This document shows positions 1 through 16,808 of a stretch of 17,226 nt of DNA, one piece after another. The translations under genes and the position numbers were made by a program. The stretch covers positions 1-17,226 of the forward strand of contig CAAEKI010000137.1 of NCBI GenBank assembly GCA_900756495.1, in the 5' to 3' direction. The stretch comes from an uncultured Oscillospiraceae bacterium. GTDB lineage: Bacteria > Bacillota > Clostridia > Oscillospirales > Oscillospiraceae. Each line of letters starts with the position of its first letter. Position 1 is the first letter of the stretch. The notes below the pieces were generated by a model that worked only from the letters and a program-made list of their open reading frames with translations, ran no database searches and had not been told where the DNA came from.

Positions 1-11
1 AGGTTTCTCAT
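1..11 (-). CDS. 5' end of an S-layer-type (SLH) protein gene, running off the left edge
   Basis: Only the start codon (positions 11-9 on the minus strand) and two and a half more codons are inside the window, reading M-R-N-L. A strong AAGGAGG-type ribosome site precedes it with good spacing. The identification rests on the leader: the sequence from here to position 55 is an exact inverted copy of the leader and start of the S-layer-type gene at 16798, which also begins M-R-N-L. By inference this is a paralogous surface-layer gene pointing outwards. The gene body is not visible, so it could be intact, truncated or only a leader remnant. The region at the distance where the right copy has its promoter shows no match to a -10 or -35 box. 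Confidence 0.55.
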
Positions 12-64
12 TGGAACTTCCTCCTTCTGATTTTTGAGTGCAAGGGGCGTATAACGCCTCTTGC
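1..64. repeat. Left arm of a 16.7-kb-spaced inverted repeat (S-layer leader)
   Basis: Position i on the plus strand is complementary to position 16809-i. Positions 1-55 match 16754-16808 without error, and the match continues to 64/16745 with mismatches only at 56 and 59. The arm covers the start codon, ribosome site and leader hairpin of the left S-layer-type gene. It probably extends past the left edge, so its true length is unknown. Confidence 0.95.
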
Positions 65-65
65 A
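39..65 (-). promoter_or_regulatory. 5'-leader hairpin of the left S-layer-type gene
   Basis: On the minus strand the leader folds as GCAAG-A-GGCG, loop TTATA, CGCC-C-CTTGC, with one A/C mismatch in the stem. The loop is identical to that of the copy upstream of 16798, where the left arm differs in sequence but the stem still forms. It sits just upstream of the ribosome site. A role in mRNA stability or translation is inferred. Confidence 0.55.
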
Positions 66-137
66 GCCACAGGGGAGGTATCGGGTGAAGGGAAAATTCA
101 GAGAAAACCTCAGCTTTTGCGGAATAAAAGTACATCT

Positions 138-232
138 GGTAGACTTTTGGTAGACATTTTATATGGGGTGGGCCCGAAAACCCCTGCAATTGCAGACCTT
201 GAGCCCGTGTTTTTGGTAGACTTTTGGTAGAC
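138..232. repeat. Four GGTAGAC direct repeats in 11-bp register
   Basis: GGTAGAC occurs at 138, 149, 215 and 226. Spacing is 11 bp inside each pair and 66 bp between pairs, so all four lie on the same helix face. Each pair belongs to an identical 20-bp unit (138-157 and 215-234), and the later copies are preceded by TTTT. Such iterated short repeats are typical of recombinase arm sites or of operators for multimeric regulators. No recombinase gene is inside the window, so the role is open. Confidence 0.7.
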
Positions 233-332
233 ATGGAATGAAAATCTATCGAAGGTATAGCTGATCTCTGAACAAGAGACGCAGAGATGCCATAGAGAGG
301 CGGCAAAAGAAAAACGAACGGGGAGAAAGAAG

Positions 333-371
333 TCAAAGGGCCGGCTCAGACAAAGAGAGCCGGCCCTTTGA
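333..371 (-). terminator. Terminator downstream of the LysR gene
   Basis: A 15-bp perfect stem (333-347 with 357-371, core AAAGGGCCGGCTC) closes a 9-nt loop. It lies about 40 nt after the LysR stop codon. On the minus strand it is followed by a T/C-rich stretch rather than a clean U tract. It may work in both directions and would also shield the left S-layer leader from LysR read-through. Confidence 0.75.
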
Positions 372-411
372 TAAATTGATACAAGCCAATTGGCAAATAA
401 GCTCTTGCTCT

Positions 412-1356
412 TTAGCCTTGACGAGTCCTGTTGCCAGAGGTCGCCGCCCATTGCAGAACGACTTTGGTCAGGTTGTCTAAGAACTGCTGAGCCTCGTTGG
501 ATAAGCTCTTATGGCTCAATTTAAACCAGCCCAAGCGCAGCTCTTCCTCACAGTCGCTGATATCGAGAAGCTTGGTACAGGCAGCTTCTCGTTCTGTGCG
601 CATACCAGAGCAGATCTGGTATGCATCAGAATTTAAAATAAAATCATAGATGGAAGCGCGATCTGTTACGTAAATGAGCTGAGAGGGATTGTGACGAGAG
701 AAGAGCCTGATCTCTTCAATATGATCAAAGGGGGTCGAGTAGTCCTGGTACATGGCTAGGTAAGGATACGGAGTGAGATCAGAATTTTTTACCCGCTCAA
801 ACTTGGCGAGAGGATGTCCGAGCCGCACGCAGACTTGGGGCCGAATCCGGCAGAGCTCATGAAATTCCAAGCCGCGGCTTGCCATGCTGTTAATCAGGTG
901 CTGCATTACATCAGAGAGAAACATAATGCCCAAGTCACTTTTGTCCTGCATTACGTCTTCCAGAAGATCATTGCTCAAAAGTTCCTTAATACAAAATTCA
1001 CATCTGGTATTTCCAAGCGCCTTAATCATATCGATCATTGCTTTGGTGGGAAACGCAAGATGCTGAGAGGCAATGGTCAGCCGGCTGAGATGTTTGATAT
1101 TGGATTTTTTAAACAGCTTCTCTACGTGATTTTTCTGATCCAAAAGAGAGCGCGCATGTGTGAGAAATTCCTTGCCGTCCGGAGTAAGGCAAATACCCAC
1201 TGTAGAGCGGGAAAAAATTTGGATTTGAAACTCCGCCTCTAAAGCTTTAATGGAATTGCTGATGCTGGATTGGGAAATAAACAATTTTTGGGCGGCTTTA
1301 TTGATAGAGCCGAGGTGTGCAACCTCAGATACGTAAAGCAGCTGTTGAAATGTCAT
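412..1356 (-). CDS. LysR-family transcriptional regulator
   Basis: This 314-aa protein has the standard LysR layout. An N-terminal winged helix-turn-helix covers about residues 1-60 (FQQLLYVSEVAHLGSINKAA, then SQSSISNSIKALE), followed by a linker helix and an effector-binding domain from about residue 90. The start chosen at 1356 has GGGAGG seven bases upstream and begins the family's usual M-x-x-x-Q-L sequence. An upstream ATG at 1407 would add 17 residues that do not fit the family. Length is normal. A strong terminator follows. The gene is more AT-rich than the transporter and S-layer genes. LysR proteins usually act on a neighbouring operon with a small-molecule co-inducer, so the peptide-import cluster starting at 2034 is the natural target. 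Nothing in the sequence names the effector, and the 680-bp gap is longer than usual for a divergent LysR pair. Confidence 0.9.
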   Translation of the reverse strand: MTFQQLLYVSEVAHLGSINKAAQKLFISQSSISNSIKALEAEFQIQIFSRSTVGICLTPDGKEFLTHARSLLDQKNHVEKLFKKSNIKHLSRLTIASQHLAFPTKAMIDMIKALGNTRCEFCIKELLSNDLLEDVMQDKSDLGIMFLSDVMQHLINSMASRGLEFHELCRIRPQVCVRLGHPLAKFERVKNSDLTPYPYLAMYQDYSTPFDHIEEIRLFSRHNPSQLIYVTDRASIYDFILNSDAYQICSGMRTEREAACTKLLDISDCEEELRLGWFKLSHKSLSNEAQQFLDNLTKVVLQWAATSGNRTRQG

Positions 1357-1409
1357 GACGGTACCTCCCAAGCTGAGATAGAGATAGAAATGGCTGTAAT
1401 TCATCAAAG

Positions 1410-1415
1410 ACTATA
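1410..1415 (-). promoter_or_regulatory. Possible -10 box of the LysR gene
   Basis: TATAGT on the minus strand lies about 55 nt upstream of the LysR start codon. The -35 region is poor, which would fit an autoregulated or weak promoter. Assigned by position and one hexamer only. Confidence 0.3.
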
Positions 1416-1450
1416 CCAGAAAGACAAGTGAAAAGGAATCGCTATTTGGA

Positions 1451-1615: not shown

Positions 1616-1662
1616 ATATAACGAGACGAGCGTAATCTCAATGGAAAACACAGGAGTTATAT

Positions 1663-2756: not shown

Positions 2757-2801
2757 CGGCAACCCGCGGCTTAGGCAGGAGTGCGGGGTAAGATCTTCCA
2801 G

Positions 2802-2857: not shown

Positions 2858-4417
2858 ATGAAAAAGAAATCGACTATCATCGCGTTGATTCTGTGCGCTG
2901 CCATGATCGCAGGGATCCTGGCAGGCTGCAGCGGAACACCGAACGGAGGAGGCGGCAGTGAACCGGACGGCAGCTCCGGCGGCGGGACGGCGAAAGACAC
3001 CATTGTGGTGGCATCCCAGACAGAGCCTACTACCTTGGGAACCTGTGACCACGCCGCACTTGCCAGCGACTATGTAAACCAGCTTATTTACTCTGGTCTC
3101 ACCCGTGTGGATGAGAACAACGAAATGGTTGGAGATATTGCGGAAAGCTGGGAGCAGGTCAGCGATACCGAGTGGATCTTCCACCTCAGGGAGGACGTAT
3201 ACTTCCACAACGGAGAACATCTGACCGCAGATGACGTGGTGGCCACGCTGTACTGGGTTCAGGGCTTTGAAGCCAGTTCTACCTATGCACTGTCTTTTGC
3301 CACTGCAATTGAGACGGTCGATGAGTACACCGTCCGCATTGTGACGGAAGTGCCTGTCGCTACCCTGCTGTACTACCTGTCCAATCACGCGAACTTCATT
3401 GTGCCGAAGTCTCTGATTGACAGCGGCAACGATTTCAACGAGAATCCTGTCGGCTGCGGTCCGTATAAGTTTGTCTCCTGGGATGCGGGAGAGAAGCTGA
3501 CCTTTGAGGCATTCGAGGATTTTTATGAGGGTGCTCCTGCCATTCAGCATCTGACCTACATGATCATCCCGGAGTCCTCCAGCCGTACGATGGCGTTGCA
3601 GAGCGGCGACGTGGACTATGTCATTCAGGTCAACGCCCCCGACTACGAGCTGCTGGTTGCCGACGAGAATGTTGAAGTCCTTGAAAAGCCAGGCACCTCT
3701 CTGAATCACATGATGCTTAACAACGCGGTCGCCCCCTTTAATGACGAGAACTTCCGCAAGGCCGTCAATGCCGCGATCAACAAGCAGGACATTGTAGATG
3801 GCGCCCTGTACGGCCTAGCCAGCCCAGCCGTTGCCCAGACACCCGATATGCTTGCCGGTACCGTGACCACCAACGCAGACGAGTACGACGTGGAACTGGC
3901 CAAGCAATATATGGAGGCATGGGGCGGGGATCCCGCTGACGCCACCTTTACGGTTATGTGCTCAAATGACACGAAGGTAAAGATTGCCGAGATCATCCAG
4001 GCAGCCCTGAGCGAAATCGGCATCACAATGAAAATCGAGTCGTGCGACACAGCGGCATATCTCGCCCAGACAGCTCCCGGCGTCGGTGAGTATCAGGCTG
4101 CCATTGGCGGTTATAACCACTCCAGCATGTATAACTTTGCAAATTATGAGTTCCTGTCCACCGCCATGGGGGGCGGCACCAGAAGTCAGGCCCAGTATGA
4201 GGATGTGGACGAACTGCTGATAAAGGCGGGCAGTACCGTGGATCCGGAGGAGAACCTGGCCGTTCTGGAAGAGCTCTCCGCCACGCTCAACGATCGCTGT
4301 ATCTATATTCCGCTCTACTCGGATTATAATCTGCGGGCCTATAACAAGGATCTTGGCGGCGTACAGATCAACGGCAGCAATGAAAACAACTGGAGGACCC
4401 TCTACTGGAAGAGCTGA
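2858..4417 (+). CDS. Extracellular solute-binding lipoprotein, family 5 (peptide-binding, DppA/OppA type)
   Basis: This protein captures the substrate outside the membrane and delivers it to the permease pair encoded downstream. The 519 residues begin with a lipoprotein signal peptide: MKKK, a hydrophobic stretch, then the lipobox L21-A22-G23-C24, so Cys24 is the lipidated residue. A Gly/Ser/Pro linker (about 25-46) leads into a family 5 solute-binding domain. That domain shows the usual features: the early T-E-P-T-T-L segment, the NPVGCGPYKF segment near the hinge, and SGDVDYV in the second lobe. Length is typical. The start at 2858 has AGGAGGG nine bases upstream. The family binds di- and oligopeptides, nickel-chelates or glutathione; the adjacent peptidase favours peptides, but the ligand cannot be read from sequence. 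A hairpin after the gene may raise its expression above that of the permease genes. Confidence 0.93.
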   Translation: MKKKSTIIALILCAAMIAGILAGCSGTPNGGGGSEPDGSSGGGTAKDTIVVASQTEPTTLGTCDHAALASDYVNQLIYSGLTRVDENNEMVGDIAESWEQVSDTEWIFHLREDVYFHNGEHLTADDVVATLYWVQGFEASSTYALSFATAIETVDEYTVRIVTEVPVATLLYYLSNHANFIVPKSLIDSGNDFNENPVGCGPYKFVSWDAGEKLTFEAFEDFYEGAPAIQHLTYMIIPESSSRTMALQSGDVDYVIQVNAPDYELLVADENVEVLEKPGTSLNHMMLNNAVAPFNDENFRKAVNAAINKQDIVDGALYGLASPAVAQTPDMLAGTVTTNADEYDVELAKQYMEAWGGDPADATFTVMCSNDTKVKIAEIIQAALSEIGITMKIESCDTAAYLAQTAPGVGEYQAAIGGYNHSSMYNFANYEFLSTAMGGGTRSQAQYEDVDELLIKAGSTVDPEENLAVLEELSATLNDRCIYIPLYSDYNLRAYNKDLGGVQINGSNENNWRTLYWKS

Positions 4418-4449
4418 AGCAATAACAGATAAACTGCTCGAAAGCAGCC

Positions 4450-4487
4450 GCTGGCGTAGGGCAAAGGAGCCTTGTCCCTACGCCAGC
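4450..4487 (+). promoter_or_regulatory. Intercistronic hairpin between binding-protein and permease genes
   Basis: A 12-bp perfect stem (4450-4461 with 4476-4487, GCTGGCGTAGGG/CCCTACGCCAGC) encloses a 14-nt loop. No T tract follows, so it is unlikely to be a full terminator. Structures like this between a binding-protein gene and permease genes are known to protect the upstream mRNA or to cause partial termination. Either would give more binding protein than permease. Confidence 0.65.
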
Positions 4488-4549
4488 ATTGCTATAGAGC
4501 GCTGTACTTGCAGAGAGGATTTCTGCTGCGTTTGAGTGAGGAGAAAAAT

Positions 4550-5476
4550 ATGCTCAAATACATAATCAAACGGTTGCTGGCCATGATTCCGGTGCTGTTG
4601 GGCGTGATTCTGGTTGTCTTTCTGATTATGTCCATGACCAACGGAGACGCAGCGACCATTATCCTGGGAGAGACAGCTTCCGAAGAGGCGCTTGAGGCGG
4701 TTCGGGAAGAGTGGGGGCTGAATGATCCGCTTCCGGTGCAATATGTCCGCTATATTTTCAATTTGTGCAGAGGCGATTTCGGCACCTCATACCGTACGGG
4801 GAAAGCTGTGGCGGATGAAATCTTTACAAACCGGTTTCCCGCCACGCTGCGTCTGGCGGTAGCCGCACTGGTGTTTTCGCTGATTTTGGCGTTACCCCTG
4901 GGCATCTTTGCCGCGATCAAACAGAATACCTGGTTTGACACGATTAGCATGGTCATATCGCTCATTGGGATCTCTATGCCGGCGTTCTGGTTAGCGCTAT
5001 TGGCAATCCTATTGTTTTCTGTTACATTGGGCTGGTTTCCGGCCACCGGCGCAGAGGGCTTCAAGAGCCTGATCTTACCAGCCCTGACCTTAGGTTTTAT
5101 GCATATGGCCGCCATCGCCCGTACAACCCGCTCCTCTATGCTGGAGACCGTCCGGCAGGACTATATCCGCACGGCGCGGAGCAAGGGCGTGTCTAAAATG
5201 GATACCATTATGAATCATGCCTTACGTAACGCTATGATCCCTACGCTCACTGTGATTGGAATCCAGGTGGGTTCTCTTTTGGGAGGAGCCGTTCTAACGG
5301 AGACGGTCTTTTCATGGCCGGGCATGGGGCGCTATCTCGTGCTCTCTATTCAAGGGCGAGATACCCCGGCGGTACTGGGGTGCATTGTTGTATTCACGGT
5401 CTGCTTCTCTCTGGTAAACCTGTTTGTGGATATTCTGTACGGTTTTGTTGATCCCCGGATCAACGCCAGAAATTAG
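4550..5476 (+). CDS. Peptide ABC transporter permease (DppB/OppB type)
   Basis: This 308-aa inner-membrane subunit forms half of the translocation path with the next gene's product. The start at 4550 is set by GAGGAG upstream and by the MLKYIIKRLL opening usual for the family; an in-frame ATG at 4472 would add 26 atypical residues and overlap the hairpin. A first membrane segment lies at about 11-29, followed by an external region of about 70 residues ending in GDFGTSY, typical of DppB-like proteins. Further membrane segments lie near 100-123, 132-161, 174-190, 230-250 and 276-299. The ATPase-coupling EAA loop is about residues 205-231 (YIRTARSKGVS...HALRNAMIP). It ends in the family signature FVDPRI. 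It is followed 11 bp later by the partner permease gene. Confidence 0.95.
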   Translation: MLKYIIKRLLAMIPVLLGVILVVFLIMSMTNGDAATIILGETASEEALEAVREEWGLNDPLPVQYVRYIFNLCRGDFGTSYRTGKAVADEIFTNRFPATLRLAVAALVFSLILALPLGIFAAIKQNTWFDTISMVISLIGISMPAFWLALLAILLFSVTLGWFPATGAEGFKSLILPALTLGFMHMAAIARTTRSSMLETVRQDYIRTARSKGVSKMDTIMNHALRNAMIPTLTVIGIQVGSLLGGAVLTETVFSWPGMGRYLVLSIQGRDTPAVLGCIVVFTVCFSLVNLFVDILYGFVDPRINARN

Positions 5477-5487
5477 GGAGGTGCCCA

Positions 5488-6381
5488 ATGACGATCCAAA
5501 CAAAGATAGCGGCCGCAGGCAGGCCAACCTATAAAAAGCAGAGCAAGGTCCTGGACGTTTGGAGGCGCCTGCGAAAAAACCGGGGTGCGATCATCGGACT
5601 CATCATTATTCTGGTGATTATTTTGACCGCCGTCCTCTGCCCCCTGTTCCTGGACTACGAACAGGATATTGTAAAACAAAACATCTCTGAGCGCCTGCAG
5701 TTTCCGTCGCTCCAACATTTACTGGGGACGGACACTCTGGGAAGAGACCTCTTCGCCCGCATTGTCTGGGGCGCCCGGGCTTCTGTGGGCATCGGCTTTG
5801 CTTCGGTAGCTATCGCTCTCATCGTTGGTGGGGTCATCGGCGCGGTCGCCGGTTTTTGGGGCGGCGGGGTTGATATGCTGCTAATGCGCATCATGGATGT
5901 GTTCTTGGCCATCCCCGCTACTCTGCTGGCCATTGCCATTGTAGCGGCTTTCGGAGGCAGCATCCGGAACCTGATCATCGCGCTTGCTATATCTATGGTA
6001 CCAAATATGGCGCGGGTCACCCGCGGATCGGTCATGACGGCGAGAGATCAGGAATATGTGGAGGCAGCGCGGGCCATTGGGGACCGCAAACTGGTCATCC
6101 TGTTCTGTCATGTGCTTCCCAACAGCCTGGCCCCTGTTATTGTGCAGACTACTTTGAGCGTGGCCTCCGCCATTTTGATCACTGCCGGGCTGAGTTTTAT
6201 CGGCTTGGGTGTTGAAGCGCCTATGCCCGAATGGGGCTCGCTGCTCTCCAGGGGCCGGGAGTGTATTCGCACACATGGCTATTTGTCGGTTTTCCCCGGC
6301 GTTGCCATTATGCTGACAATTTTATCTTTGAACCTGCTGGGCGATGGGCTGCGCGACGCACTCGATCCAAGGCTGAAGTAA
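5488..6381 (+). CDS. Peptide ABC transporter permease (DppC/OppC type)
   Basis: This is the second membrane subunit, 297 aa. The N-terminal cytoplasmic tail (1-33) precedes a first membrane segment at about 34-52. The DppC-type motif LLGTDTLGRDLFAR follows at 78-91. More membrane segments cover about 100-125, 137-157, 161-175, 215-240 and 268-287. The EAA loop that contacts the ATPases is at about 189-215 (EYVEAARAIGDRK...HVLPNSLAP). The protein ends with the common GDGLRDALDPRLK tail. The start at 5488 has GGGAGGTG seven to eight bases upstream. Short spacing on both sides (11 and 15 bp) indicates one transcript with the neighbours. Confidence 0.95.
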   Translation: MTIQTKIAAAGRPTYKKQSKVLDVWRRLRKNRGAIIGLIIILVIILTAVLCPLFLDYEQDIVKQNISERLQFPSLQHLLGTDTLGRDLFARIVWGARASVGIGFASVAIALIVGGVIGAVAGFWGGGVDMLLMRIMDVFLAIPATLLAIAIVAAFGGSIRNLIIALAISMVPNMARVTRGSVMTARDQEYVEAARAIGDRKLVILFCHVLPNSLAPVIVQTTLSVASAILITAGLSFIGLGVEAPMPEWGSLLSRGRECIRTHGYLSVFPGVAIMLTILSLNLLGDGLRDALDPRLK

Positions 6382-6396
6382 GGAGGAAGCACCCAC

Positions 6397-7398
6397 ATGG
6401 AAGGAAAACATGAAGCAGCCGATGTGGTGCTGGACATTCAGGATCTCTGGGTAGAGTACAAAACGGATACTGGGATTGTGCAGGCACTCAATGGGCTTGA
6501 GCTTCAGGTGAAGCGGGGCGAAACGCTTGGACTGGTGGGAGAAACGGGAGCAGGCAAGACAACTGCCGGTCTCAGTATCCTCGGGCTGGTTCCGGACCCT
6601 CCGGGGAGGATTGTGAGGGGCAGTATTACGCTCAACGGCGAACCGCTGTTGAAAAAATCCGATAAAGAGATGGATAAGATCCGGGGACGGAATGTGGCGA
6701 TGATTTTCCAAGACCCCATGACCGCCCTGAACCCCGTTAAGCGGGTAGAGGTGCAGATTGCCGAGGGAATCCGTCTGCACAAAAAGCTCTCTGCTCGTGC
6801 GGCATTGGATGAGGCCCGCAAAATGCTGGAAACCGTAGGAATTCCGGCTGAGCGCGGCTCTGAGTACCCGCACCAGTTCTCCGGCGGCATGAAGCAGCGC
6901 GTCGTGATTGCCATTGCACTGGCCTGCAACCCGGGCTTTCTGATCGCGGATGAGCCCACCACAGCGCTGGACGTGACCATTCAGGCACAGATCCTGGACA
7001 TGATGAAAAAACTGCGGGATGAGCGGGGCTCTTCCATGCTGATGATCACGCACGACTTAGGGATTGTTGTGGAGATTTGCGACAAGGTTTCCGTTGTTTA
7101 TGCCGGCCGGGTTGTAGAACACGGCGATCTGGAGGACATCTATGAACACACCAAACACCCGTATACGGTGGGGCTGTTTCAATCCCTGCCCAATTTGAAC
7201 GACCGAAAAGCCAAGCTGCAGCCCATTCGCGGGCTGATGCCGGACCCGACCAATCTGCCCTTGGGCTGCGCATTCTGTCCCCGGTGCGGGTTTGCCAAGG
7301 AGATCTGCCGGACGGAAAAACCTCCGCGGGTTTACCTGAATGGGGAGCACTATGTGGAGTGTCACCTATACGCCGAGGAAGGGAGGGAGGCGACTTGA
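6397..7398 (+). CDS. Peptide ABC transporter ATP-binding protein (DppD/OppD type)
   Basis: One of two ATPases that power import. The 333-aa protein has Walker A GETGAGKT at 48-55, Q-loop Gln105, signature FSGGMKQR at 161-168, Walker B FLIADEP at 181-187 and switch His219. The C-terminal extension is of the oligopeptide/dipeptide type (HPYT at about 254) and carries a cysteine set C291, C294, C297, C304 and C322. In related DppD proteins such cysteines hold an iron-sulfur cluster, which is plausible in an anaerobe. The start at 6397 has AAGGAGG upstream. The stop codon overlaps the next gene's start. Confidence 0.95.
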   Translation: MEGKHEAADVVLDIQDLWVEYKTDTGIVQALNGLELQVKRGETLGLVGETGAGKTTAGLSILGLVPDPPGRIVRGSITLNGEPLLKKSDKEMDKIRGRNVAMIFQDPMTALNPVKRVEVQIAEGIRLHKKLSARAALDEARKMLETVGIPAERGSEYPHQFSGGMKQRVVIAIALACNPGFLIADEPTTALDVTIQAQILDMMKKLRDERGSSMLMITHDLGIVVEICDKVSVVYAGRVVEHGDLEDIYEHTKHPYTVGLFQSLPNLNDRKAKLQPIRGLMPDPTNLPLGCAFCPRCGFAKEICRTEKPPRVYLNGEHYVECHLYAEEGREAT

Positions 7399-8372
7399 TT
7401 ACCCCAGAAAACGATATCTTGCTGGAGGTCCGGGAGCTGAAGAAGTATTTCTCCACGCCCAAGGGGATGCTCCATGCGGTGGACAACGTCTCCTTTACAA
7501 TTCCAAGGGGCAAGACCCTGGGAGTGGTGGGAGAGTCCGGCTGCGGAAAGTCAACCACAGGCCGGGTAATACTCCGCCTGCTGGAAGCCACCTCCGGTCA
7601 GGTGCTGTTTGAGGGAAAGGATATTCTGTCCCTTTCAGAGCGGCAGATGAGAGAAATGCGGAGAGAGATGCAGATTATTTTCCAGGATCCATTCAGTTCC
7701 ATCAATCCCCGCAAGTCCATCAGTGAGACCATTGCCGAGCCCATACGCCGGCACCGCATCATAACCAATAAACGGGAGCGCGAGGAGAAGGTCTTCGAAA
7801 TTATGAAGACGGTGGGATTGGCAGAGCGCTTCTACAATGCCTATCCTCATGAACTGGATGGCGGCCGCCGTCAGCGTGTGGGAATTGCACGGGCTCTGGC
7901 ACTTAACCCCAAATTTATTGTCTGTGACGAGCCCGTCTCAGCCTTGGATGTCTCAATTCAGGCACAGATTCTGAATTTGATGCAGGAGCTCCAGGAGCAA
8001 ATGGGGCTGACCTATATGTTTATCACCCACGATCTCTCGGTGGTCAATCACTTCTCTGATGAGATCGCCGTTATGTATCTGGGGCAGATTGTAGAGAGAG
8101 CCCCCACCGATGAAATCTTTGAACATCCGGTTCATCCGTATACGCAGGCGCTGCTCAGTGCAATTCCGGTGCCTTCGCTCCGAAACCGCCGCAAGCGTAT
8201 TCTGCTGAAAGGAGAGCTCACCTCCCCTGTCAATCCCGCTCCGGTCTGCCGTTTTGCAAATCGCTGCATTTATGCAACTGAGCGGTGCAGAGGTGAAGAG
8301 CCTGCGCTGCGTGAAATTTCCAAGGGGCACTTTGTTTCTTGCTTCCTGGCAGATGAAAAGGGAAAGGATTGA
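7395..8372 (+). CDS. Peptide ABC transporter ATP-binding protein (DppF/OppF type), TTG start
   Basis: The second ATPase, 325 aa from a TTG start at 7395 that overlaps the previous stop codon as TTGA. The run GGGAGGGAGG sits just upstream, which decides the start; an in-frame upstream ATG at 7284 would lie deep inside the previous gene. Walker A is GESGCGKST (46-54), Q-loop Gln97, Walker B FIVCDEP (174-180) and switch His212. The ABC signature reads LDGGRRQR (154-161), with Asp where Ser is canonical. I recall this form in other DppF-like proteins, so the site is probably active. The C-terminal extension carries HPYT (247-250) and C285, C291, C298 and C316, matching the cysteine set of the partner ATPase. 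Confidence 0.93.
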   Translation: MITPENDILLEVRELKKYFSTPKGMLHAVDNVSFTIPRGKTLGVVGESGCGKSTTGRVILRLLEATSGQVLFEGKDILSLSERQMREMRREMQIIFQDPFSSINPRKSISETIAEPIRRHRIITNKREREEKVFEIMKTVGLAERFYNAYPHELDGGRRQRVGIARALALNPKFIVCDEPVSALDVSIQAQILNLMQELQEQMGLTYMFITHDLSVVNHFSDEIAVMYLGQIVERAPTDEIFEHPVHPYTQALLSAIPVPSLRNRRKRILLKGELTSPVNPAPVCRFANRCIYATERCRGEEPALREISKGHFVSCFLADEKGKD

Positions 8373-9873: not shown

Positions 9874-12219
9874 TTATTCGGCAACCACGACGCGGACCTT
9901 GCCGCCGTCCTCGGGGGCCTTGTCGTAATAAACGGTCAGGGTCTCGGAGAAGGCGCGGGCCAGGTTCAGGGCATCCATGGGGTCGGTGTCCTCACCGCCG
10001 AACCAGGTCTTGGTGGTCTTATTATAGCATTGTACGTCGTCCGAGATGGGGAGGACCATATTGGGCGTAGTCACCGTCTGAGCCTCCATGTCGAAGGCGG
10101 AACGGGAGACGCCGCTTACCTTGATGAGTTCAACGGAACCGGCGAGTTTTTTGCCGTCCAGCGTGGCCGCAATTCCCATGAGTGCGCCGTTCTGGAAGTG
10201 GACGCCACAGTCAATGGGGCCCAGGGAACCGGTGCCATTGGTGACTGTTACGGTGGCATTGGTACCGGGATCCATAGGGTCGTCCTCCGCACCGGGTACA
10301 GCGTTCGTATAGAAGATGTGGCCGTAAGTATACTGGTCGCCCGTCACATCGTTGAGAACCATGATGTTGATACGGCCGGCGTAGTCCTTGCCGGCGTACA
10401 GAATTTTGCTTGTGGGAATTGTGCTGCAGGTGATGTCATCCACATCGACACGCTGAGGCTTGCTGGTGCCGACCCGCTCATAGATCACCGCGTTGGGAGC
10501 GAGGGAGACGTTCCCCATCATGCCGGTGCCCATATCCAGCGCACTGCTCGCTCCGCTGCCCGAGAGGCGGGACAGGTTGATGCGATCAACACTGCTGGAA
10601 GAGACCGTGACCAGCTGGCCCTCCATTTGGGCGGCCTTGGTGCCGGAATAGCTGCTCTTGCCGGAGAGGGACGGCAGGGCGGTGTTCAGGGGATCCACGG
10701 TGGCGTTGCCGTCCGAGTCAATTTTGGAGACCACACCCACGGTGTTGGAGCGAAGGGTGTCGTTGGAGACTACGCCGGCCACCTGGCCGTCCACGGTGAG
10801 AAGAAGGGTGATGGTCTGGCCGATTTTGAAGGACTTCAGGTCAGAAGCCGCCGAGGGAAGCACGGTGAATTTTGCGCCCAGGACGGTGATTTCGGCGGGC
10901 GTAGAGGTGTTGGGATATACGTTTTCATACACGCCGGTGAGCCGAAGATCGGAGACATTCAGGATTTTGGTGTTGGCGTCATAGGTCGCGGCGTCGTACT
11001 GCCGGATATCGGAGACCGTGGCGGGCGTACCATTTTTATAAATCTGGTAGTCGGTAACCCGATTGACCAGGGAGCCAAAGGGATTAGAAGTGCCGTTGGG
11101 CTTGTTTTTCGCCACCATGGCGGTCTCGGCGACAGCGGCGGTGCGCAGGAAGAGGTAGTCCACCTTGCCGGCGGCGGTATAGTAGATGGTAAGCGGCGCG
11201 CCGGCACGCTGATCCTGCCATACGTCCTTGTAGACCTTCTCGGCGCCGTCGATGTAAATGGCGCAGTCAGGGTCGATGTCCAGTTTGTTTTTATTCGTGT
11301 CGGTCACATAGTTATAGGCCCACTCACTGACACTGAGGGAGCGGCTGGTCAGATCCTCGTCCGCCTGGAAGGCCAGCAGCTTGCCGTCCTTGTCCAGGAG
11401 GATATCGCCTTGCGTTCCCTCCAGCGTGGAGGAGAGCGTGGCGCGATCGGTTTTATAGGTGCCGGTCGTGGTCTTGACTGCGCCTTGGGTGCCGTCCGCC
11501 GCTGCGGCATCCACATCCAGAAGGATGCCGCCGTCGGTCTTCTTCCCACCCAGGGTGGTCAAATAAATATCCCCTGTGCCCTTGTTGGATTTGGCAAAGA
11601 GCAGATTATAAAACAGAATTGCCGCCTGACCGCGGGTGACAGTAGAGGTAGCGGCAAGGCTGATTCCGTCGGTGAGGCCCGCCTCGCCGGCTACCGCCAT
11701 ATAGCCGTCATACCAATTGATACCGGAGGCCACGTCGGAGTCGCCGTAGCCCAGCACCCGCATCAGGATGGTAACCGCCTCGCTGTAAGTTATCTTGCGG
11801 TCGGGCTCAAAGTTGCCATTGCCCACGCCTGCGATGAGGCGGGTACCGCCCTTGCCGTCCTCACCGCCCCCCAGGGTAATGGTGGACGCCAGATTGACAT
11901 AGCCGCGGGCCCAATGGGTGGGCCCCACATCCAGAAAAATGGTGCGGTTGCGCTGGCCGGGCTCCTGATCGCCCTTGTCCATAACCTCTACAGTCATTTT
12001 GCAGAATTCGGCCCGGGACAGGATGCCGCCGGGGTTAAAGGATCCGTAGCCGGTGCCGCTGACCACGCCCAACAGGCGCAGAACCTCGGCGGCCTCGGCC
12101 ACCTGCGGGTCGGAGATGTCGGTAAAGGCGCCGCTCTCCGCAGCGGAAGCGGGATAGACCAGCAGCCCTGTCAGCATGGCGGCTGCAAGGAGCAGGGTCA
12201 GCATTCGTTTCAGTTTCAT
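9874..12219 (-). CDS. SLH-domain cell-surface protein, last gene of the MacAB-like operon
   Basis: A 781-aa exported protein. The start at 12219 has AAGGAG upstream and opens a classic signal peptide, MKLKRMLTLLLAAAML... ending PASAA near residue 27. Three S-layer homology modules follow: about 32-80 (FTDISDP...SRAEFCKMTVEVM), 95-157 (FLDVGPTHWARGYV...ITYSEAVTILMRVLG) and 168-210 (WYDGYMAVAGEAGLTDG...TRGQAAILFYNLL). SLH modules bind pyruvylated wall polymers, so the protein should coat the wall surface. The remaining 570 residues are rich in Thr, Ser, Asp and Gly with repeated beta-strand patterns, and I do not recognise them. Cleavage gives an acidic mature protein ending VVVAE. The gene lies 58 bp downstream of the permease gene with no clear promoter between, so it is probably cotranscribed. 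A long open frame on the opposite strand is a codon-bias shadow. Confidence 0.92.
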   Translation of the reverse strand: MKLKRMLTLLLAAAMLTGLLVYPASAAESGAFTDISDPQVAEAAEVLRLLGVVSGTGYGSFNPGGILSRAEFCKMTVEVMDKGDQEPGQRNRTIFLDVGPTHWARGYVNLASTITLGGGEDGKGGTRLIAGVGNGNFEPDRKITYSEAVTILMRVLGYGDSDVASGINWYDGYMAVAGEAGLTDGISLAATSTVTRGQAAILFYNLLFAKSNKGTGDIYLTTLGGKKTDGGILLDVDAAAADGTQGAVKTTTGTYKTDRATLSSTLEGTQGDILLDKDGKLLAFQADEDLTSRSLSVSEWAYNYVTDTNKNKLDIDPDCAIYIDGAEKVYKDVWQDQRAGAPLTIYYTAAGKVDYLFLRTAAVAETAMVAKNKPNGTSNPFGSLVNRVTDYQIYKNGTPATVSDIRQYDAATYDANTKILNVSDLRLTGVYENVYPNTSTPAEITVLGAKFTVLPSAASDLKSFKIGQTITLLLTVDGQVAGVVSNDTLRSNTVGVVSKIDSDGNATVDPLNTALPSLSGKSSYSGTKAAQMEGQLVTVSSSSVDRINLSRLSGSGASSALDMGTGMMGNVSLAPNAVIYERVGTSKPQRVDVDDITCSTIPTSKILYAGKDYAGRINIMVLNDVTGDQYTYGHIFYTNAVPGAEDDPMDPGTNATVTVTNGTGSLGPIDCGVHFQNGALMGIAATLDGKKLAGSVELIKVSGVSRSAFDMEAQTVTTPNMVLPISDDVQCYNKTTKTWFGGEDTDPMDALNLARAFSETLTVYYDKAPEDGGKVRVVVAE

Positions 12220-12277: not shown

Positions 12278-13489
12278 CTATTCGGCCCGCAGCGCCACAA
12301 CAGGCTGGAGGCCGCTGGCTTTGATGGCCGGATACAGGCCGAAGGCGATACCCAGGCCCAGGGAGACGCCAAAGGCCAGAAGTGTGATAAAGGCATCCGG
12401 GTAGATGATCATATTCAGCAGTGCCTTTCCGGCGATGAGGGTTCCCAGATAGCCGATGAGGATGCCGATCAGGCCGCCGATACAGCACAGCATACAGGCC
12501 TCAATGAGAAATTGAGCCACGATGCTTTTGCGCTCGGCGCCAATGGCCTTGCGGATGCCGATCTCACGGGTGCGCTCGGTGACGGTGACCAGCATGATAT
12601 TCATGATGCCGATGCCGCCGACCAGCAGAGAGATTCCCGCAATACCGCCCAACACCAGGGCCTGAGAGCGCAGGTACTCGTTGGCGCTGTCGATGGAGGC
12701 GTTGCTGCCCTGTGCGTTGTAGTAGCCCGTGCCCTCCGGGATGAGACCGGAGAGATAGCCCTGAAGCCAGGTGGTTGCCTGGGTGGAGGCCAGGGCGCTG
12801 ACCGCTTTCACGGAGTAGGACTCAATGGGCTGGTTGTTGTTCATGCTGCGGTTAAACGTATAGGGAATGAGGATGATGTTGTCCATCTCAGGCCAGTTGT
12901 CCACGTTCTTCCGCTCATAGACGCCGACCACTTTGAAGGGCGTACCGTTGAGCGTAATGGTTTTCTCCAGCGGGTCCACAAAGTCGAAGAGCATTTCGGC
13001 CACGCGGCCGCCCAGCACACAGACATTGTGCTCCTTTTCTACATCCAGATGGGAGAGTTCCCGACCCTTGGCGATGGTGTAGTTGTTGCAAAGTCCATAC
13101 TGATCATTGCCCAGGTTAACGGAGATCATATCCTCCCAGTTATCCCAGTTGTAAGTGGAATAGGTCTTGGTCCCGTATTTGACGACGACTTCGTTGTTAA
13201 TCTGCCCGTTGGGCGTGATTCCCTCGATGAGGTCGCTCAGGCTCAAACAATAATTGTACAGATCCTGAGACACATCCTTGCCGTCGTAGCGCCAGGCCCG
13301 CACGTCGATCTTGTTGGTGCCCTGGCTCTCGATGTACTCCATGTTCTTCTTGTTCTGGCCCTGGATGGTGGAGACCATGATGACGACCGCTGCCACGCCG
13401 ATGATGATGCCCAGCATCGTGAGGAGGGAGCGCATCTTCTTGGAGAGAATGGACTTGACTGCCATTTTAAAGGCCTGGCTCAGATTCAC
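12278..13489 (-). CDS. MacB/FtsX-family ABC transporter permease
   Basis: A 403-aa membrane subunit with the MacB-type fold. Membrane segment 1 is at about 22-42. A large extracytoplasmic domain covers 43-277, with the conserved late segment FKVVGVYE (185-192). Three C-terminal membrane segments lie at about 278-302, 330-352 and 365-387. The family signature GIMNIMLVTVTERTREIGIRKAIGA sits at 294-318, given here only by its key residues: the TERTREIG stretch and the KAIGA end. The start is GTG at 13489, overlapping the ATPase stop codon (GTGA) and preceded by GAGGGGG. Proteins of this type do not form a classical pore; they couple ATP hydrolysis to movement of peptides, antibiotics or lipoproteins at the outer face of the membrane. 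It works with the two genes upstream, in the manner of YknXYZ in Bacillus. Confidence 0.94.
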   Translation of the reverse strand: MNLSQAFKMAVKSILSKKMRSLLTMLGIIIGVAAVVIMVSTIQGQNKKNMEYIESQGTNKIDVRAWRYDGKDVSQDLYNYCLSLSDLIEGITPNGQINNEVVVKYGTKTYSTYNWDNWEDMISVNLGNDQYGLCNNYTIAKGRELSHLDVEKEHNVCVLGGRVAEMLFDFVDPLEKTITLNGTPFKVVGVYERKNVDNWPEMDNIILIPYTFNRSMNNNQPIESYSVKAVSALASTQATTWLQGYLSGLIPEGTGYYNAQGSNASIDSANEYLRSQALVLGGIAGISLLVGGIGIMNIMLVTVTERTREIGIRKAIGAERKSIVAQFLIEACMLCCIGGLIGILIGYLGTLIAGKALLNMIIYPDAFITLLAFGVSLGLGIAFGLYPAIKASGLQPVVALRAE

Positions 13490-14181
13490 AGTCCCGCCCC
13501 CTCTCTGTTTCCATCATAGATGATTTCGCCGTCGGAGATCCGGATAACCCGCTCTGCAGTGGCGGCGATACCGTTATCGTGTGTAATGAGGATAATGGTG
13601 GATCCCTCACTGTGCAGGCGGTGGAGGATTTCCAGTACATGCTTGCCGGTGCGGGAGTCCAGAGCGCCAGTGGGTTCGTCGGCCATGATGATGGGAGGGT
13701 GGGTGGCGATGGCGCGGGCGATGGCCACGCGCTGCTGCTGTCCGCCCGACATCTCGGTGGGCTTATGCTTTGCACGGTCCGCCAACCCCACCCGCTCAAG
13801 GGCTTCTTCCACCAAATCCTCCCGCTTGAAGATGGAGATCCCCTGATAGATCAGGGGAAGCTCCACATTCTCGTAGGCGTTGAGCCCGGGGATCAGGTTA
13901 AAACCCTGGAAGATAAAGCCGATCTGCTTGTTGCGGATGTGGGCCAGCTGCCGGTCTGAGAGTTCGGTGATGTCCGTGCCGTCCAGGTGGTAATCTCCGT
14001 AGGTCGGGATATCCAGGCAGCCCAGGATGTTCATCAGGGTGGACTTTCCGGAGCCGGATGCGCCGATAATGGCTACGAATTCCCCGCGGTCGATATCCAG
14101 AGAGACCCCGTTAAGGGCGCGGACCTCGCTTTCCTCTCCTTCATTATAAATCTTATAGAGATTTTTTACATCTATCAGCAT
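13486..14181 (-). CDS. MacB/LolD/YknY-type ABC ATP-binding protein
   Basis: A compact 231-aa ATPase, the usual length for this class. It shows Walker A GASGSGKS at 40-47, Q-loop Gln92 in FIFQGFNLIPGLNAYENV, signature MSGGQQQR at 144-151, Walker B IIMADEP at 164-170, D-loop SALD-like GALDSRTG and switch His201. The start at 14181 follows AAGGGG. In-frame codons upstream lie inside the preceding gene and encode an unlikely Arg-rich stretch. It is 11 bp downstream of the membrane fusion protein gene and overlaps the permease gene by 4 bp, so the three are translated together. It energises the MacB-type permease. Confidence 0.95.
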   Translation of the reverse strand: MLIDVKNLYKIYNEGEESEVRALNGVSLDIDRGEFVAIIGASGSGKSTLMNILGCLDIPTYGDYHLDGTDITELSDRQLAHIRNKQIGFIFQGFNLIPGLNAYENVELPLIYQGISIFKREDLVEEALERVGLADRAKHKPTEMSGGQQQRVAIARAIATHPPIIMADEPTGALDSRTGKHVLEILHRLHSEGSTIILITHDNGIAATAERVIRISDGEIIYDGNREGAGL

Positions 14182-14192
14182 GGCGCAGCCCC

Positions 14193-16214
14193 TTAATAGC
14201 CATAGCTGTTGGCGTTGTCCGTCGCGTAGCCGATGAAGACCTCGTCGCCTTCGTTCAGGCCGCTGATGATCTCTACCCGGGTGGAGTCGGACAGGCCTAC
14301 TTCGACAGGGACAGTCCAGAAGCCTTCGGGGCACTCCCAGGCGGGGTCGGGCTCCAAAATGGCGTTCTCAGGGGCCTTGGCCGCCTTGACAAAGACCACA
14401 TAGCCGGTGCCGTCGTCGCTGGAACCTCCAAAGGATCCCATGGAACCGCCAGAGGAAGAGCCGCCCATGGAGATGGAGCCGCCGGTTGCGGGCATGACCA
14501 TGACGGACAGGGGCCGTGCTGTTGCGCCGCCGGTGTAGGACTGGGGTACAGCCTCAGGCACAGCGATGTCTCCGCCTGCAGCGCCGTCGTCGGCAGCAGG
14601 GGCTTCCGATTCGCCGCCGCTCTCTTCGGGCAGGGCGTCTCCGCCGTCCTCCAGGCCCGGATCGGCCATGCCGCCGTCGAGTCCGGGCTCCGTCATACCG
14701 GGATCAGCCGTATCTCCGCCCATCCCGTCCAGCATACCTGGAATGTTGGCAAAGCTGACGTACTTGACCGCCTGAACCGGTACGGTGAGACAGTCTTCGG
14801 ACTGACTGGCTACAAAGGAGTAGTTGGCATATGTATTGCTCATCATCATGCCGTCGGGATTGTCCACCTTGACTACGGCGGGGAAGGTGGACATGCCGTT
14901 TTCGGCATTGCCGGTGAGTGCGACAGACTCCACAATACCCATATAGTAGTTGCCATACTGCTCAATGTCCACCATCATGCCGGCTTTGACGTATTGGATG
15001 TTGCGCTCGTCCACAGAGATCTCGATGGTCATGACGCTGGTGTCGGCGATGGTGATGGCCTGGCCGCTGGTGACCTCCTGGCCGGCAACCAGATTACAGG
15101 TGAGAACAGTGCCCGAAATCGGGGCCACGGCGTTATACTTGCCCAGCTCCTCCAGGGCCTCGTCCAGCTTCTCCTGAGCGGCCTTCAGAGCGTTCTCCTG
15201 CGTGGCGATCTCGGTGTCGGTATCCTTGGCGCCCAGCTGGACCAGAACCTGCCCCTGCCGCACATCGGCGTAGTTCAGGAGGTTTACGCTCTCCACCGGG
15301 CCGGTGGCTTTGGCCTTGATGACGGTGGTTTCGTAATACTCCAAGGTGCCGTTTTCATATGGGTAGATGGGAGTTCCGTCAGAAGCAGTAATGGCGGCCG
15401 AGGCGTCCATTCCCTCGGTGAGGGTGCCCGGATTGTCCATCACAAAGACGACCTCGAAATGAATGGCGCCCTCGGGAGTGACGTAGCGGACCTTATTGAT
15501 GCTCTCCACAGTGCCGCTGCGGGTGCCCATAGTGGCGGGAATGGAGATCTGGGCGCTCTGGCCCACATGAATCTCGTCTTCATAGGCATAGCTGTAGTAA
15601 AGGGAGAGGCGCAGCTTGGTGTCGTTGACCAGAGTGGCGATGGTGGTCCCCTCCGACACGGTATCACCGATCTTGAAATCTCCCACCTCCCTCAGGTTGC
15701 CGGCATGGGGCGCAGTGATGGTCAGCTCGGCAATTTTGTCATAGACGGCCTGAAGCTCCTTCGTACAGTTATCCACTGTCTTCTGTGCATCCGTCACAGC
15801 GTCCTGGGCGGTGGTGTCGTCCATCGTATACAAGGGCTGGCCCTCGGTAACCACGTCGCCCTCCTTTACGAAAAGCTCCTCAATGGTGCCGCCGGTGTTG
15901 GGGGTAATGGTGGCGGCGTCCTTGGCCTTGGTCAGGCCGCTGCCCTCCACCATGCTCTGGATAGAGCCGCGCATAACCACATCGGTCATGGCCTCGCCCT
16001 TATCGGTGTTTTCCCGGAAAACAAACATCCACAGAATAACCCCTATCGCGATGACGACAGCCGCCACGATAATCAATGCAATGACGATTTTGAGCGCTTT
16101 GGGCATTTTTTTCTTTTTCTTCTTTTTCGGCGTCTGTGGAGGCCCCGCAGGCGGTGTGGTGCGCGGCTGTTCCGCTGCGGTCGCTTCCATAACAGGAGTT
16201 TGCTGTTCCGTCAT
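14193..16214 (-). CDS. Membrane fusion protein (MacA/YknX/HlyD family) with duplicated core
   Basis: A 673-aa periplasmic-adaptor-like protein, well above the roughly 370-400 aa of MacA or YknX. A Pro/Thr-rich cytoplasmic tail ends in a run of seven lysines (30-36), then one membrane segment at about 41-66. The outer part contains two consecutive lipoyl/hairpin/barrel units. The first covers about 100-235 (ITPNTGGTIEELFVKEGD... then ITAPHAGNL...GDTVSEG). The second covers about 297-430 (VIKAKATGPVESVN... then VAPISGTVL...GQEVTSG). A Gly/Asp/Pro/Ser-rich stretch at about 493-603 interrupts the last domain, which resumes as YVVFVK and ends with VEIISGLNEGDEVFIGY. The start at 16214 has AGGAGG eight bases upstream. 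It is the first gene of a four-gene operon and probably links the transporter to the cell envelope. Confidence 0.92.
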   Translation of the reverse strand: MTEQQTPVMEATAAEQPRTTPPAGPPQTPKKKKKKKMPKALKIVIALIIVAAVVIAIGVILWMFVFRENTDKGEAMTDVVMRGSIQSMVEGSGLTKAKDAATITPNTGGTIEELFVKEGDVVTEGQPLYTMDDTTAQDAVTDAQKTVDNCTKELQAVYDKIAELTITAPHAGNLREVGDFKIGDTVSEGTTIATLVNDTKLRLSLYYSYAYEDEIHVGQSAQISIPATMGTRSGTVESINKVRYVTPEGAIHFEVVFVMDNPGTLTEGMDASAAITASDGTPIYPYENGTLEYYETTVIKAKATGPVESVNLLNYADVRQGQVLVQLGAKDTDTEIATQENALKAAQEKLDEALEELGKYNAVAPISGTVLTCNLVAGQEVTSGQAITIADTSVMTIEISVDERNIQYVKAGMMVDIEQYGNYYMGIVESVALTGNAENGMSTFPAVVKVDNPDGMMMSNTYANYSFVASQSEDCLTVPVQAVKYVSFANIPGMLDGMGGDTADPGMTEPGLDGGMADPGLEDGGDALPEESGGESEAPAADDGAAGGDIAVPEAVPQSYTGGATARPLSVMVMPATGGSISMGGSSSGGSMGSFGGSSDDGTGYVVFVKAAKAPENAILEPDPAWECPEGFWTVPVEVGLSDSTRVEIISGLNEGDEVFIGYATDNANSYGY

Positions 16215-16256
16215 GTTCTTTTCCTCCTAAAATACTTGCATGGATTCACAGATACC

Positions 16257-16284
16257 ATTGTATCACGGGATGCCGGGAAGACAA
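16257..16284 (-). promoter_or_regulatory. Promoter of the MFP-ATPase-permease-SLH operon
   Basis: On the minus strand TTGTCT (16284-16279), 16 bp, TACAAT (16262-16257). The -10 box matches five of six consensus bases and the -35 four of six. Transcription would begin near 16250, with a leader of about 35 nt before the start codon at 16214. Confidence 0.55.
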
Positions 16285-16300
16285 ACCACAATTCAGTGAC

Positions 16301-16322
16301 AAATTCTTAAATAATCCTTAAG
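16301..16322 (-). promoter_or_regulatory. Tandem 11-bp box, candidate response-regulator site
   Basis: Two adjacent 11-mers on the minus strand, CTTAAGGATTA and TTTAAGAATTT, agree at 8 of 11 positions. They end 16 bp upstream of the -35 box of the operon promoter. Head-to-tail half sites repeating every 11 bp just above -35 are typical of OmpR/PhoB-type activators. No two-component genes are in the window. Confidence 0.5.
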
Positions 16323-16705
16323 CTTTTCCCGCTGGTCATTAGACGGTTCAGAAGGGAAAAAAGTTCCGCACATGTTATATATATTATAAGGTAGGGCAGG
16401 TCATAAAACTGCTGTCTCTGCCTGCCCCCCTCCCTGACCGTTTTCATTGCGCCCTCCTTTTATTCATTTGCAGTCTGCCGGAGCGCAGGTGCGGCAGACC
16501 GGGAATTGGAGATGCGGCGCAGGGCGGACATGCGAGGCGGCTCTGGCGGGGGATATCCGGGAGGGGCGTGTCTGCTGTATTTCGACGCAGTTCCCCGGAA
16601 AGCAGCAGGAACTTTCGCGAAAGACCAGCGTCTAAGGATAAAAATAGCCCCCAGCCCAAGGGCTGGAGGCTATTTTACAGCTTTGTTACAAATGGCCCAA
16701 ACCGG
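16323..16705. other. Structured non-coding region upstream of the right S-layer gene
   Basis: Short open frames here lack ribosome sites and recognisable products. The region shows inverted repeats GGGCAGG/CCTGCCC (16394-16400 with 16421-16427) and GTCTGCCG/CGGCAGAC (16473-16480 with 16492-16499), a perfect palindrome CTTTCGCGAAAG (16612-16623) and the terminator at 16641-16676. A TATAAT is present on the minus strand (16388-16383) but without a -35 partner. No known riboswitch core is recognised. Confidence 0.5.
16641..16676. terminator. Bidirectional terminator insulating the right S-layer promoter
   Basis: AAAATAGCC pairs with GGCTATTTT and CCAGCC with GGCTGG around the loop CAAG, with one C/A mismatch between the two helices. 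The A-rich and T-rich ends suit termination on either strand. It ends 30 bp before the -35 box of the S-layer promoter and follows no recognised gene. Confidence 0.75.
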
Positions 16706-16734
16706 TTGACGAACGGCCGATTTTGTTTTATAGT
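16706..16734 (+). promoter_or_regulatory. Strong promoter of the right S-layer-type gene
   Basis: TTGACG (16706-16711), 17 bp, TATAGT (16729-16734), the best sigma-A type promoter in the window. Transcription would start near 16741, so the leader hairpin would sit almost at the 5' end of the mRNA. The matching position beside the left S-layer copy lacks both hexamers. Confidence 0.8.
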
Positions 16735-16744
16735 CTTCGCAGAG

Positions 16745-16769
16745 GCAAGGGGAGTTATACGCCCCTTGC
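16745..16769 (+). promoter_or_regulatory. 5'-leader hairpin of the right S-layer-type gene
   Basis: GCAAGGGG-A-G, loop TTATA, C-G-CCCCTTGC forms an 8-bp stem, then one A/G mismatch and a closing G-C pair. The loop is the same as in the left copy, while the left arm differs at two positions. A 5'-terminal hairpin of this kind can stabilise abundant mRNAs, as expected for surface-layer proteins. Confidence 0.6.
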
Positions 16770-16808
16770 ACTCAAAAATCAGAAGGAGGAAGTTCCAATG
16801 AGAAACCT
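16745..16808. repeat. Right arm of the 16.7-kb-spaced inverted repeat (S-layer leader)
   Basis: Exact inverted copy of positions 1-55 (16754-16808), continuing to 16745 with two mismatches. It covers the leader hairpin, ribosome site and first codons of the gene at 16798. Similarity ends just downstream of the predicted transcription start, so the promoter itself lies outside the shared segment. Confidence 0.95.

Follow-up and report, generated by a model that had tools for sequence, protein, structure and literature searches.

The inverted repeat and its two sites

The stretch of DNA analysed here, below called the window, spans 17,226 nucleotides (nt) of contig CAAEKI010000137.1 from an uncultured Oscillospiraceae bacterium (GenBank assembly GCA_900756495.1), and our subject is the pair of inverted sites at its two ends, from which S-layer-type genes point away from each other. 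The longest inverted repeat that the repeat search listed for the window pairs positions 1–64 with 16745–16808, 64 nt with 97% complementarity that lie 16,680 nt apart. Compared base by base, 55 nt of these are perfect (1–55 against 16754–16808), just as an earlier note on this DNA had stated, and a perfect match of 55 nt in 17 kb is not due to chance. The perfect part opens exactly at the word GTTATAC, which we call the core, and beyond it two mismatches follow, C/A (56 against 16753) and A/G (59 against 16750). Each copy of the repeat spans the 5' leader, the Shine-Dalgarno site (GGAGGAA) and the ATG of a gene; reading both copies thus also upholds what the note had said of leader, ribosome site and start codon. 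A search of the window against Rfam gave nothing at gathering scores, and therefore a known riboswitch or leader RNA does not account for the repeat. A scan of viral contigs with a 20-mer of the leader gave zero matches, as did the pattern CAAGNGGNGTTATACGCCCCTTG, sought in 117 loci.

The two sites differ in what lies upstream of the shared part. The right copy of the repeat (16745–16808, plus strand), with its core, leader, Shine-Dalgarno site and first codons, belongs to a putative expression site. Its promoter, recognised by the strict rule given below, consists of TTGACG, a 17-nt spacer and TATAGT (16706–16734, plus strand), with a GTTACAAA box farther upstream, and is followed by the core at 16754–16760 (plus strand), where the perfect repeat opens, where an A precedes the word, and which would be the crossover region. 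The S-layer-type gene behind it (16798–17226, plus strand) has a signal-peptide-like start and S-layer homology (SLH) domains (PF00395, 5.1e-25), and is visible for 143 amino acids (aa) before the end of the window truncates it. The left copy (1–64, minus strand) holds the core, leader, Shine-Dalgarno site and first three codons of a promoterless S-layer-type gene, whose start codon lies at 9–11 (minus strand) within ATGAGAAACCT, a start found in many relatives. Here the core, again the candidate crossover region at the opening of the perfect repeat, lies at 49–55 (minus strand) and is preceded by a C. Upstream of it, the repeat search found two copies of TGGTAGACTTTTGGTAGACAT, which on the gene strand read as two direct-repeat pairs of the word CTACC: an inner pair (153/142; 138–153, minus strand), with its first word 98 nt from the core, and an outer pair (230/219; 215–230, minus strand), with its first word 175 nt from the core and 77 nt from the inner pair. 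These pairs, which may be arm-type sites of an integrase, are referred to as arms from here on. The strict rule found no promoter of the conserved type at this left, silent copy.

Copies, arms and integrases in related genomes

In a scan with the MacB permease of the window, the closest named relatives among the matches listed were Pseudoflavonifractor, Flavonifractor and other Oscillospiraceae, with 46–51% identity. The leader DNA was matched in four of nine genomes of such relatives, and in 50 of 300 Oscillospiraceae genomes when two candidates were scored per genome; all counts on 300 genomes come from one draw from one family, with one genome per species. A pattern for the signal-peptide start was then applied to 30 genomes picked for having leader, arm or integrase matches, and it hit 82 places in 26 of these, with zero hits for the backward control. 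Together with two copies from genome G059 and two from the window, this gives a classified set of 86 copies from 27 genomes and the window.

Promoters were called by a strict rule, which demands TTGAC in the first hexamer, a spacing of 16–18 nt, an A at position 2 and a T at position 6 of the second hexamer, at least 9 of 12 matches, and also one of the words GTTAC and TTACA no farther than 260 nt away. Under this rule 21 of the 86 copies have a promoter, one each in 20 genomes and in the window and two in no genome, and in 18 of these 21 cases further copies accompany it. Among copies with at least 280 nt of upstream sequence (7 of the 86 were too short), CTACC words at 90–200 nt or in pairs accompany 54 of the 59 that lack the promoter but none of the 20 that have it. 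Of the five non-promoter copies without a near CTACC, G096 has two, and G098, G109 and G221 have one each. As a separate observation, four copies have a much longer stretch before the ATG; three of them (G096:C38:437, G096:C38:15524 and G221:C85:342) have no arms and no promoter within the part that was read, and the fourth, G221:C16:9182, has an arm pair about 360 nt upstream.

The anatomy of the silent site, in the order arm pair, arm pair, core, leader, ATG, is closely kept. In each of the 30 copies with a GTTATAC-like word within 60–140 nt, the inner arm pair and the core are 96–99 nt apart, and the remaining 12 of the 42 copies with paired arms have no such word at that distance. Median spacings between the two arm pairs range from 74.5 to 88 nt in 12 genomes and the window and keep in step with the helical turn of the DNA (Rayleigh R = 0.87, p ~5e-5, an optimistic value since the genomes are related). 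Furthermore, GTTATAC recurs with small changes in relatives, at the point from which promoter copies and silent ones resemble each other. Where a GTTATAC-like word was found, the base immediately in front of it was an A in all 11 promoter copies and a C (25) or T (9) in all 34 silent copies; both kinds of copy are represented in 10 genomes as well as in the window. The base is thus a property of the site, whichever gene follows, which is what an exchange to its right would produce. An integron-like attC core was considered for this word and dropped, since the consensus GTTRRRY does not fit GTTATAC.

On 10 of the 11 contigs that hold a promoter copy together with another copy, our script found an inverted partner; the eleventh, in G137, has one too, which the start pattern had missed. 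Where there is exactly one other copy, the pair is inverted (7/7 contigs), pointing outwards in G001, G188 and the window and inwards in G031, G087, G127 and G214. Inverted partners lie 0.6–24.8 kb away, the nearest ones in relatives at 0.6–12 kb, and inverted copies occur inside contigs of 2.9–4.3 Mb (G087, G214, G276, G137) and of 547 kb (G127). The genes themselves encode products of 790–1173 aa, with SLH domains recognised by Pfam in the window gene and in the two relatives scanned. Among 35 genes with more than 500 aa read, the median identity of residues 1–150 is 78% within genomes and 50% between them, falling beyond residue 200 to 34% and 28%, respectively. Six within-genome pairs, profiled in blocks of 100 residues, are 84–99% identical over the first 200 residues. 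Some displayed parts are more alike across genomes than within: the expressed gene of G137 and a silent gene of G127 share 49–66% per block beyond residue 200, compared with 44% and 34% in the first two blocks, which indicates that a related displayed part is expressed in the one and silent in the other. Within G137, the copy at 571830 is 85% identical to the expressed gene over 1 kb only. The draft contigs of G096, G282, G023, G125, G188 and G278 end in the shared leader just past the core. Such breaks at the leader mean that the system fragments the assemblies of these bacteria.

A gene for a tyrosine recombinase lies beside a promoterless copy in G031, G087 and G214, and in seven genomes (these three and G059, G127, G190 and G278) it starts 167–264 bp from such a copy, in divergent orientation. 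In G001, G137, G253 and G276 the integrase is encoded outside the S-layer clusters. Homologues were found in all 17 genomes queried, most of which have one clearly best match, and a full-length match, defined by a score of 385 bits or more along practically the entire profile, is present in 41 of the 300 genomes (G292 has a shorter match of 376 bits). To count arms in this sample a looser arm pattern was used, which matches 32 of the 300 genomes. Of these arm-positive genomes, 25 have the integrase, against 16 of the other 268 (Fisher p = 1.2e-19); for the backward control pattern, the integrase is present in 7 of the 32 genomes matched (p = 0.17). With at least two matches to the arm pattern required, the ratio becomes 21 of 23 against 20 of 277, and the backward control reaches this number of matches in 2 genomes. 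No full-length integrase match was obtained in the one-copy promoter genomes G048, G083 and G168 or in the one-copy genome G098. For G065 and G142, which have an integrase and no arm pattern, no S-layer copy was recognised among the starts of open reading frames (ORFs) in the area around the integrase.

The three integrases scanned with Pfam all carry PF00589 and PF14659. Eleven aligned integrases share the invariant columns R208/R209, K243/K246, H322, R325, H348 and Y358, which we take to be the catalytic R-K-H-R-H-Y residues. A profile search of solved structures reached both Tn1549 Int and lambda Int. The structure prediction, which drew on 48 homologues from protein databases and not on the loci of our genome search, has a mean predicted local distance difference test score (pLDDT) of 81.7 and a predicted template-modelling score (pTM) of 0.56, with an uncertain placing of the domains relative to each other. 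Residues 10–60 of the model form three strands and a helix (a beta-beta-beta-alpha N-domain), followed by helical and catalytic parts. In a Foldseek search with this model, Tn1549 Int came first (3.9e-14) and full-length lambda Int fifth (5.1e-13; 376 columns, root-mean-square deviation 15.7 Å). Serine recombinases (PF00239) were rejected as the machine: all seven genomes searched have them, but never within an S-layer cluster.

Small ORFs beginning like 'MASNYTENYGLCQWEATDQVLREEFN' were also seen near S-layer cassettes, where a motif script found 11 in 16 stretches. They lie in L128 (10579–11259, 14806–15306 and 18947–19414; genome G137), L120 (11375–12358), L118 (11562–12617) and L131 (4575–4988), and in L197, L198, L204 and L207. 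In G137 they adjoin the arms on the upstream side and point away from the silent gene. The few small cassette-adjacent ORFs that were scanned had no Pfam or PHROGs match.

A proposed single-promoter S-layer switch and its alternatives

We consider it quite likely that the window contains the two recombination sites of a single-promoter S-layer gene switch, similar to the Vpma system of mycoplasmas discussed below, in which a tyrosine integrase inverts the DNA between the sites. At the level of sequence, this is supported by the repeat, by the promoter on one side and the arms on the other, and by the same split, the same spacing and a co-occurring integrase in relatives; that the integrase binds the arms, that crossover takes place in the core, that inversion occurs in this strain and that alternative S-layers are the products, we infer. 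The right side would then be the expression site, with promoter, core GTTATAC, leader, signal peptide and expressed S-layer gene, and the left side a silent donor site, in which two CTACC pairs (putative arm-type sites) precede the same core and leader and a promoterless gene. An integrase of the lambda/Tn1549 type, presumably encoded elsewhere in the genome, would bind to the CTACC arms of the silent site, pair this armed site with the armless expression site and exchange strands within the core, by which the 16.7 kb in between would be inverted. The promoter, with the macA operon alongside it, would then drive the left gene, and the right gene would have received the CTACC arms. Because the arms are present on one side only, both types of site would be rebuilt in each round, one armed and one armless, making the process reversible. 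The earlier note had proposed that inversion exchanges the upstream DNA of the two outward S-layer genes, and the comparative data from which we deduce the flip itself fit that proposal: at most one promoter copy per genome, silent copies sharing leader and signal peptide, inverted pairs on long contigs, and the integrase. Somewhat more tentatively, we lean towards a coat switch that is family-wide in gut Oscillospiraceae, with a host-adopted integrase of mobile-element type, attP-like arms on the silent cassettes, an armless expression site, and a reversible inversion under the control of the arms. To our knowledge, the known phase-variation switches have simple symmetrical sites, unlike such an arm-controlled inversion.

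Several observations weigh against this proposal. The left gene has only three codons before the edge of the window, and its label as an S-layer gene therefore rests on the shared leader and on relatives; of the two outward S-layer-type genes named in the note, the right one is thus confirmed by Pfam and the left one indirectly. Among the 13 window ORFs scanned with Pfam there is no recombinase, and inversion in this strain is deduced from sequence, by comparison with relatives represented by one genome per species. G031, G087, G127, G214, G239 and their relatives have another core (TGTTCC/TGTCCC) and only one to three CTACC words. In G137, five silent copies besides the inverted one are directly oriented, out of reach of inversion alone. 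The backward control of the arm pattern matches as many genomes (32) as the pattern itself, though 30 of these have a single match. The integrase is missing from 7 of the 32 arm genomes and the looser arm pattern from 16 of the 41 genomes with an integrase; four of these 16 (G059, G214, G276 and G294) do have CTACC-bearing silent copies. A strict promoter copy is absent in seven genomes (G023, G096, G098, G109, G125, G221 and G278), six of them known from short contigs; the single copy of G098 has a weaker TTGCGC-TATAAA match, seen by eye, that fails the strict rule. Lastly, 10 of 21 promoter copies carry a single unpaired CTACC farther upstream, at 230–352 nt, and a silent copy of G276 (2707692) has an 11/12 sigma-70-like match without a GTTACA box, both of which count against a perfectly clean promoter/arm rule.

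Could the paralogues simply exchange their ends by RecA-dependent homologous recombination or gene conversion within the shared leader and signal peptide, the CTACC words and the integrase not being the machine? The shared region extends into the SLH domains (84–99% over the first 200 residues) and is long enough for RecA, mosaic genes exist, and the accessible part of the literature on Campylobacter fetus discusses S-layer switching there with respect to RecA. This explanation nevertheless leaves the arms at a fixed 96–99 nt from the core, the mutual exclusion of promoter and arms, the co-occurrence of the integrase and the tie between site type and the base before the core without a reason, and we think it unlikely, except that RecA exchange may act in addition to the integrase and homogenise the N-termini. 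Direct repeats on one helix face are typical of operators as well, so that the CTACC words might be operators for a transcription factor at differentially regulated paralogues, where the 'silent' copies use other promoters and no inversion takes place; the one silent copy with the 11/12 promoter-like match would agree with this. Against this stand the core and leader, which persist in copies whose upstream DNA is unrelated and lacks a promoter of the conserved type, and the integrase, which tracks the repeats and adjoins a promoterless copy in seven genomes. We therefore regard an operator function as very improbable, although no search aimed at a regulator was made.

The least credible explanation in our view, to which we give hardly any weight, is that the repeat of the window is an artefact of assembly, a contig end extended into a collapsed repeat. 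The window does begin inside the repeat, and 10 of 11 arm-bearing stretches examined in relatives for this point likewise end at a contig end, 117–175 nt past the inner arm pair. Breaks at this very place are what a true repeat family causes. Moreover, what lies upstream of the left copy has the make-up of a true silent site, its arms placed at the 98 nt to be expected, and inverted copies are present inside the long contigs given above. Thus, regarding the concern raised in the note about the left end, the end itself is probably an assembly break within the repeat, but the arrangement is not an artefact, given the 2.9–4.3 Mb contigs of G087, G214, G276 and G137.

How does an integrase-driven switch of this kind compare with known systems? 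In the Vpma/Vsp systems of Mycoplasma agalactiae and M. bovis (recombinases Xer1 and Mbr), according to the parts of the papers available, one promoter serves otherwise silent genes that share their 5' untranslated region (UTR) and signal peptide, the recombination sites lie within that UTR, and a tyrosine recombinase is encoded close to the locus (PMC5634654, PMC2268961). With one promoter, a shared 5' UTR and signal peptide, a variable remainder and a tyrosine recombinase, the Oscillospiraceae system comes closest to these in its working, as far as those parts describe them. The Vpma/Vsp products are surface lipoproteins and those found here SLH proteins, so that we describe the system as working like Vpma and do not file it as a member. 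Furthermore, the putative Vpma/Vsp sites span -1 to -72, and arm-type repeats are not mentioned in the portions seen, whereas the silent sites of the Oscillospiraceae have them; the genes form one locus there, whereas here copies can lie on several contigs and the integrase is outside the cluster in the four genomes named above.

In their product, the closest known systems, as far as the available parts of the sources go, are the sap genes of C. fetus, slpA/slpB of Lactobacillus acidophilus and the BT1927 switch of Bacteroides. The sap genes are S-layer genes with a shared 5' end, among which one promoter is moved by inversion. They come from a different phylum; the work on them, in the part available, concerns inversion with and without RecA, and we know of no arm-bearing integrase sites for sap. 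The geometry of sap and slpA/slpB, invoked in the earlier note, is apt as regards kinship by S-layer inversion, but the enzyme likely differs from that of sap, being an integrase of the lambda/Tn1549 type with arm-type sites. For slpA/slpB, a dominant and a silent S-layer gene are exchanged by chromosomal inversion, as is proposed here, with one silent gene in the part of the source available, compared with up to six silent copies beside one expressed gene in the Oscillospiraceae (PMC7858073). Bacteroides thetaiotaomicron is likewise a gut bacterium with an S-layer under DNA inversion, but its invertible promoter, as described in the accessible part of PMC12548429, flips the one gene BT1927 ON or OFF, and is not shared among genes as here. 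In the Gram-positive S-layer review PMC8056022 there is no occurrence of phase variation, inversion or recombination, and a search of full-text literature, outside of which most subscription papers lie, gave no description of an Oscillospiraceae S-layer switch among the matches listed.

With lambda Int and the Tn916/Tn1549 integrases, the enzyme shares the catalytic residues and, by its predicted structure, the fold; its N-terminal strands and helix may correspond to an arm-binding domain, and the CTACC pairs at a distance from the core presumably correspond to the arm sites of lambda and Tn916-type elements. Those integrases integrate or excise a mobile element, whereas the present enzyme goes together with S-layer genes of the chromosome, and only one of the two partner sites has arms. 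Many bacteria have S-layers as their outermost and highly abundant proteins, which phages and antibodies encounter first. If our reading is true, a large commensal family would have a hidden system of surface variation, which short-read assemblies tend to break exactly at its switch points, and a phage- or transposon-type integrase would have been domesticated for antigen switching. SLH-leader contig ends in these genomes can then mark recombination sites and not random gaps, and a concrete enzyme, its sites and its genes would now be open to testing.

Probable passenger genes and the macA neighbourhood

The DNA between the sites encodes, by Pfam, a LysR-type regulator (412–1365, minus strand; PF00126, PF03466), an oligopeptide importer with OppA, OppB, OppC, OppD and OppF (2858–8372, plus strand; PF00496, PF00528, PF00005/PF08352) and an M20 peptidase (8373–9725, plus strand), all of which would be passengers in the proposed inversion. 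A MacAB-like operon follows, with a MacB-type permease, a MacB-type ATPase and a MacA/HlyD-type protein (12278–16214, minus strand), macA being divergent from the expression site, and ends in a 781-aa SLH-domain protein (9874–12219, minus strand), an order that is kept in L001, L126, L127 and L218. The gene content named in the note, a whole peptide importer and a MacAB-like operon, is thus confirmed. As unusual cargo, these Opp and MacAB genes are probably incidental: the MacAB block also lies between copies in G001 and G237, where the Opp genes are without a match.

The promoter copy is adjoined by macA in L001, L126, L127, L216 and L218, and is divergent from it in the window and in G001, G083, G168, G237 and G276. 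A constant pairing of promoter and macA would be expected if both lie on one side of the crossover and the gene bodies alone are exchanged. In G098 the macA block is apart from the leader copy, and macA had zero matches in the stretches examined from G031, G087, G137, G214 and G253. Beside the S-layer expression site, MacA, MacB, the permease and an SLH protein of about 780–810 aa form a conserved block in several genomes (window, L001, L126, L127, L218); this block may be linked to the export or anchoring of the S-layer.

A 240-aa ORF of the window without a Pfam match is located upstream of oppA (2034–2756), and a near-perfect inverted repeat of 23 nt with a 5-nt loop and A/T runs lies beside the LysR gene (1565–1615), where it probably serves as a bidirectional terminator.

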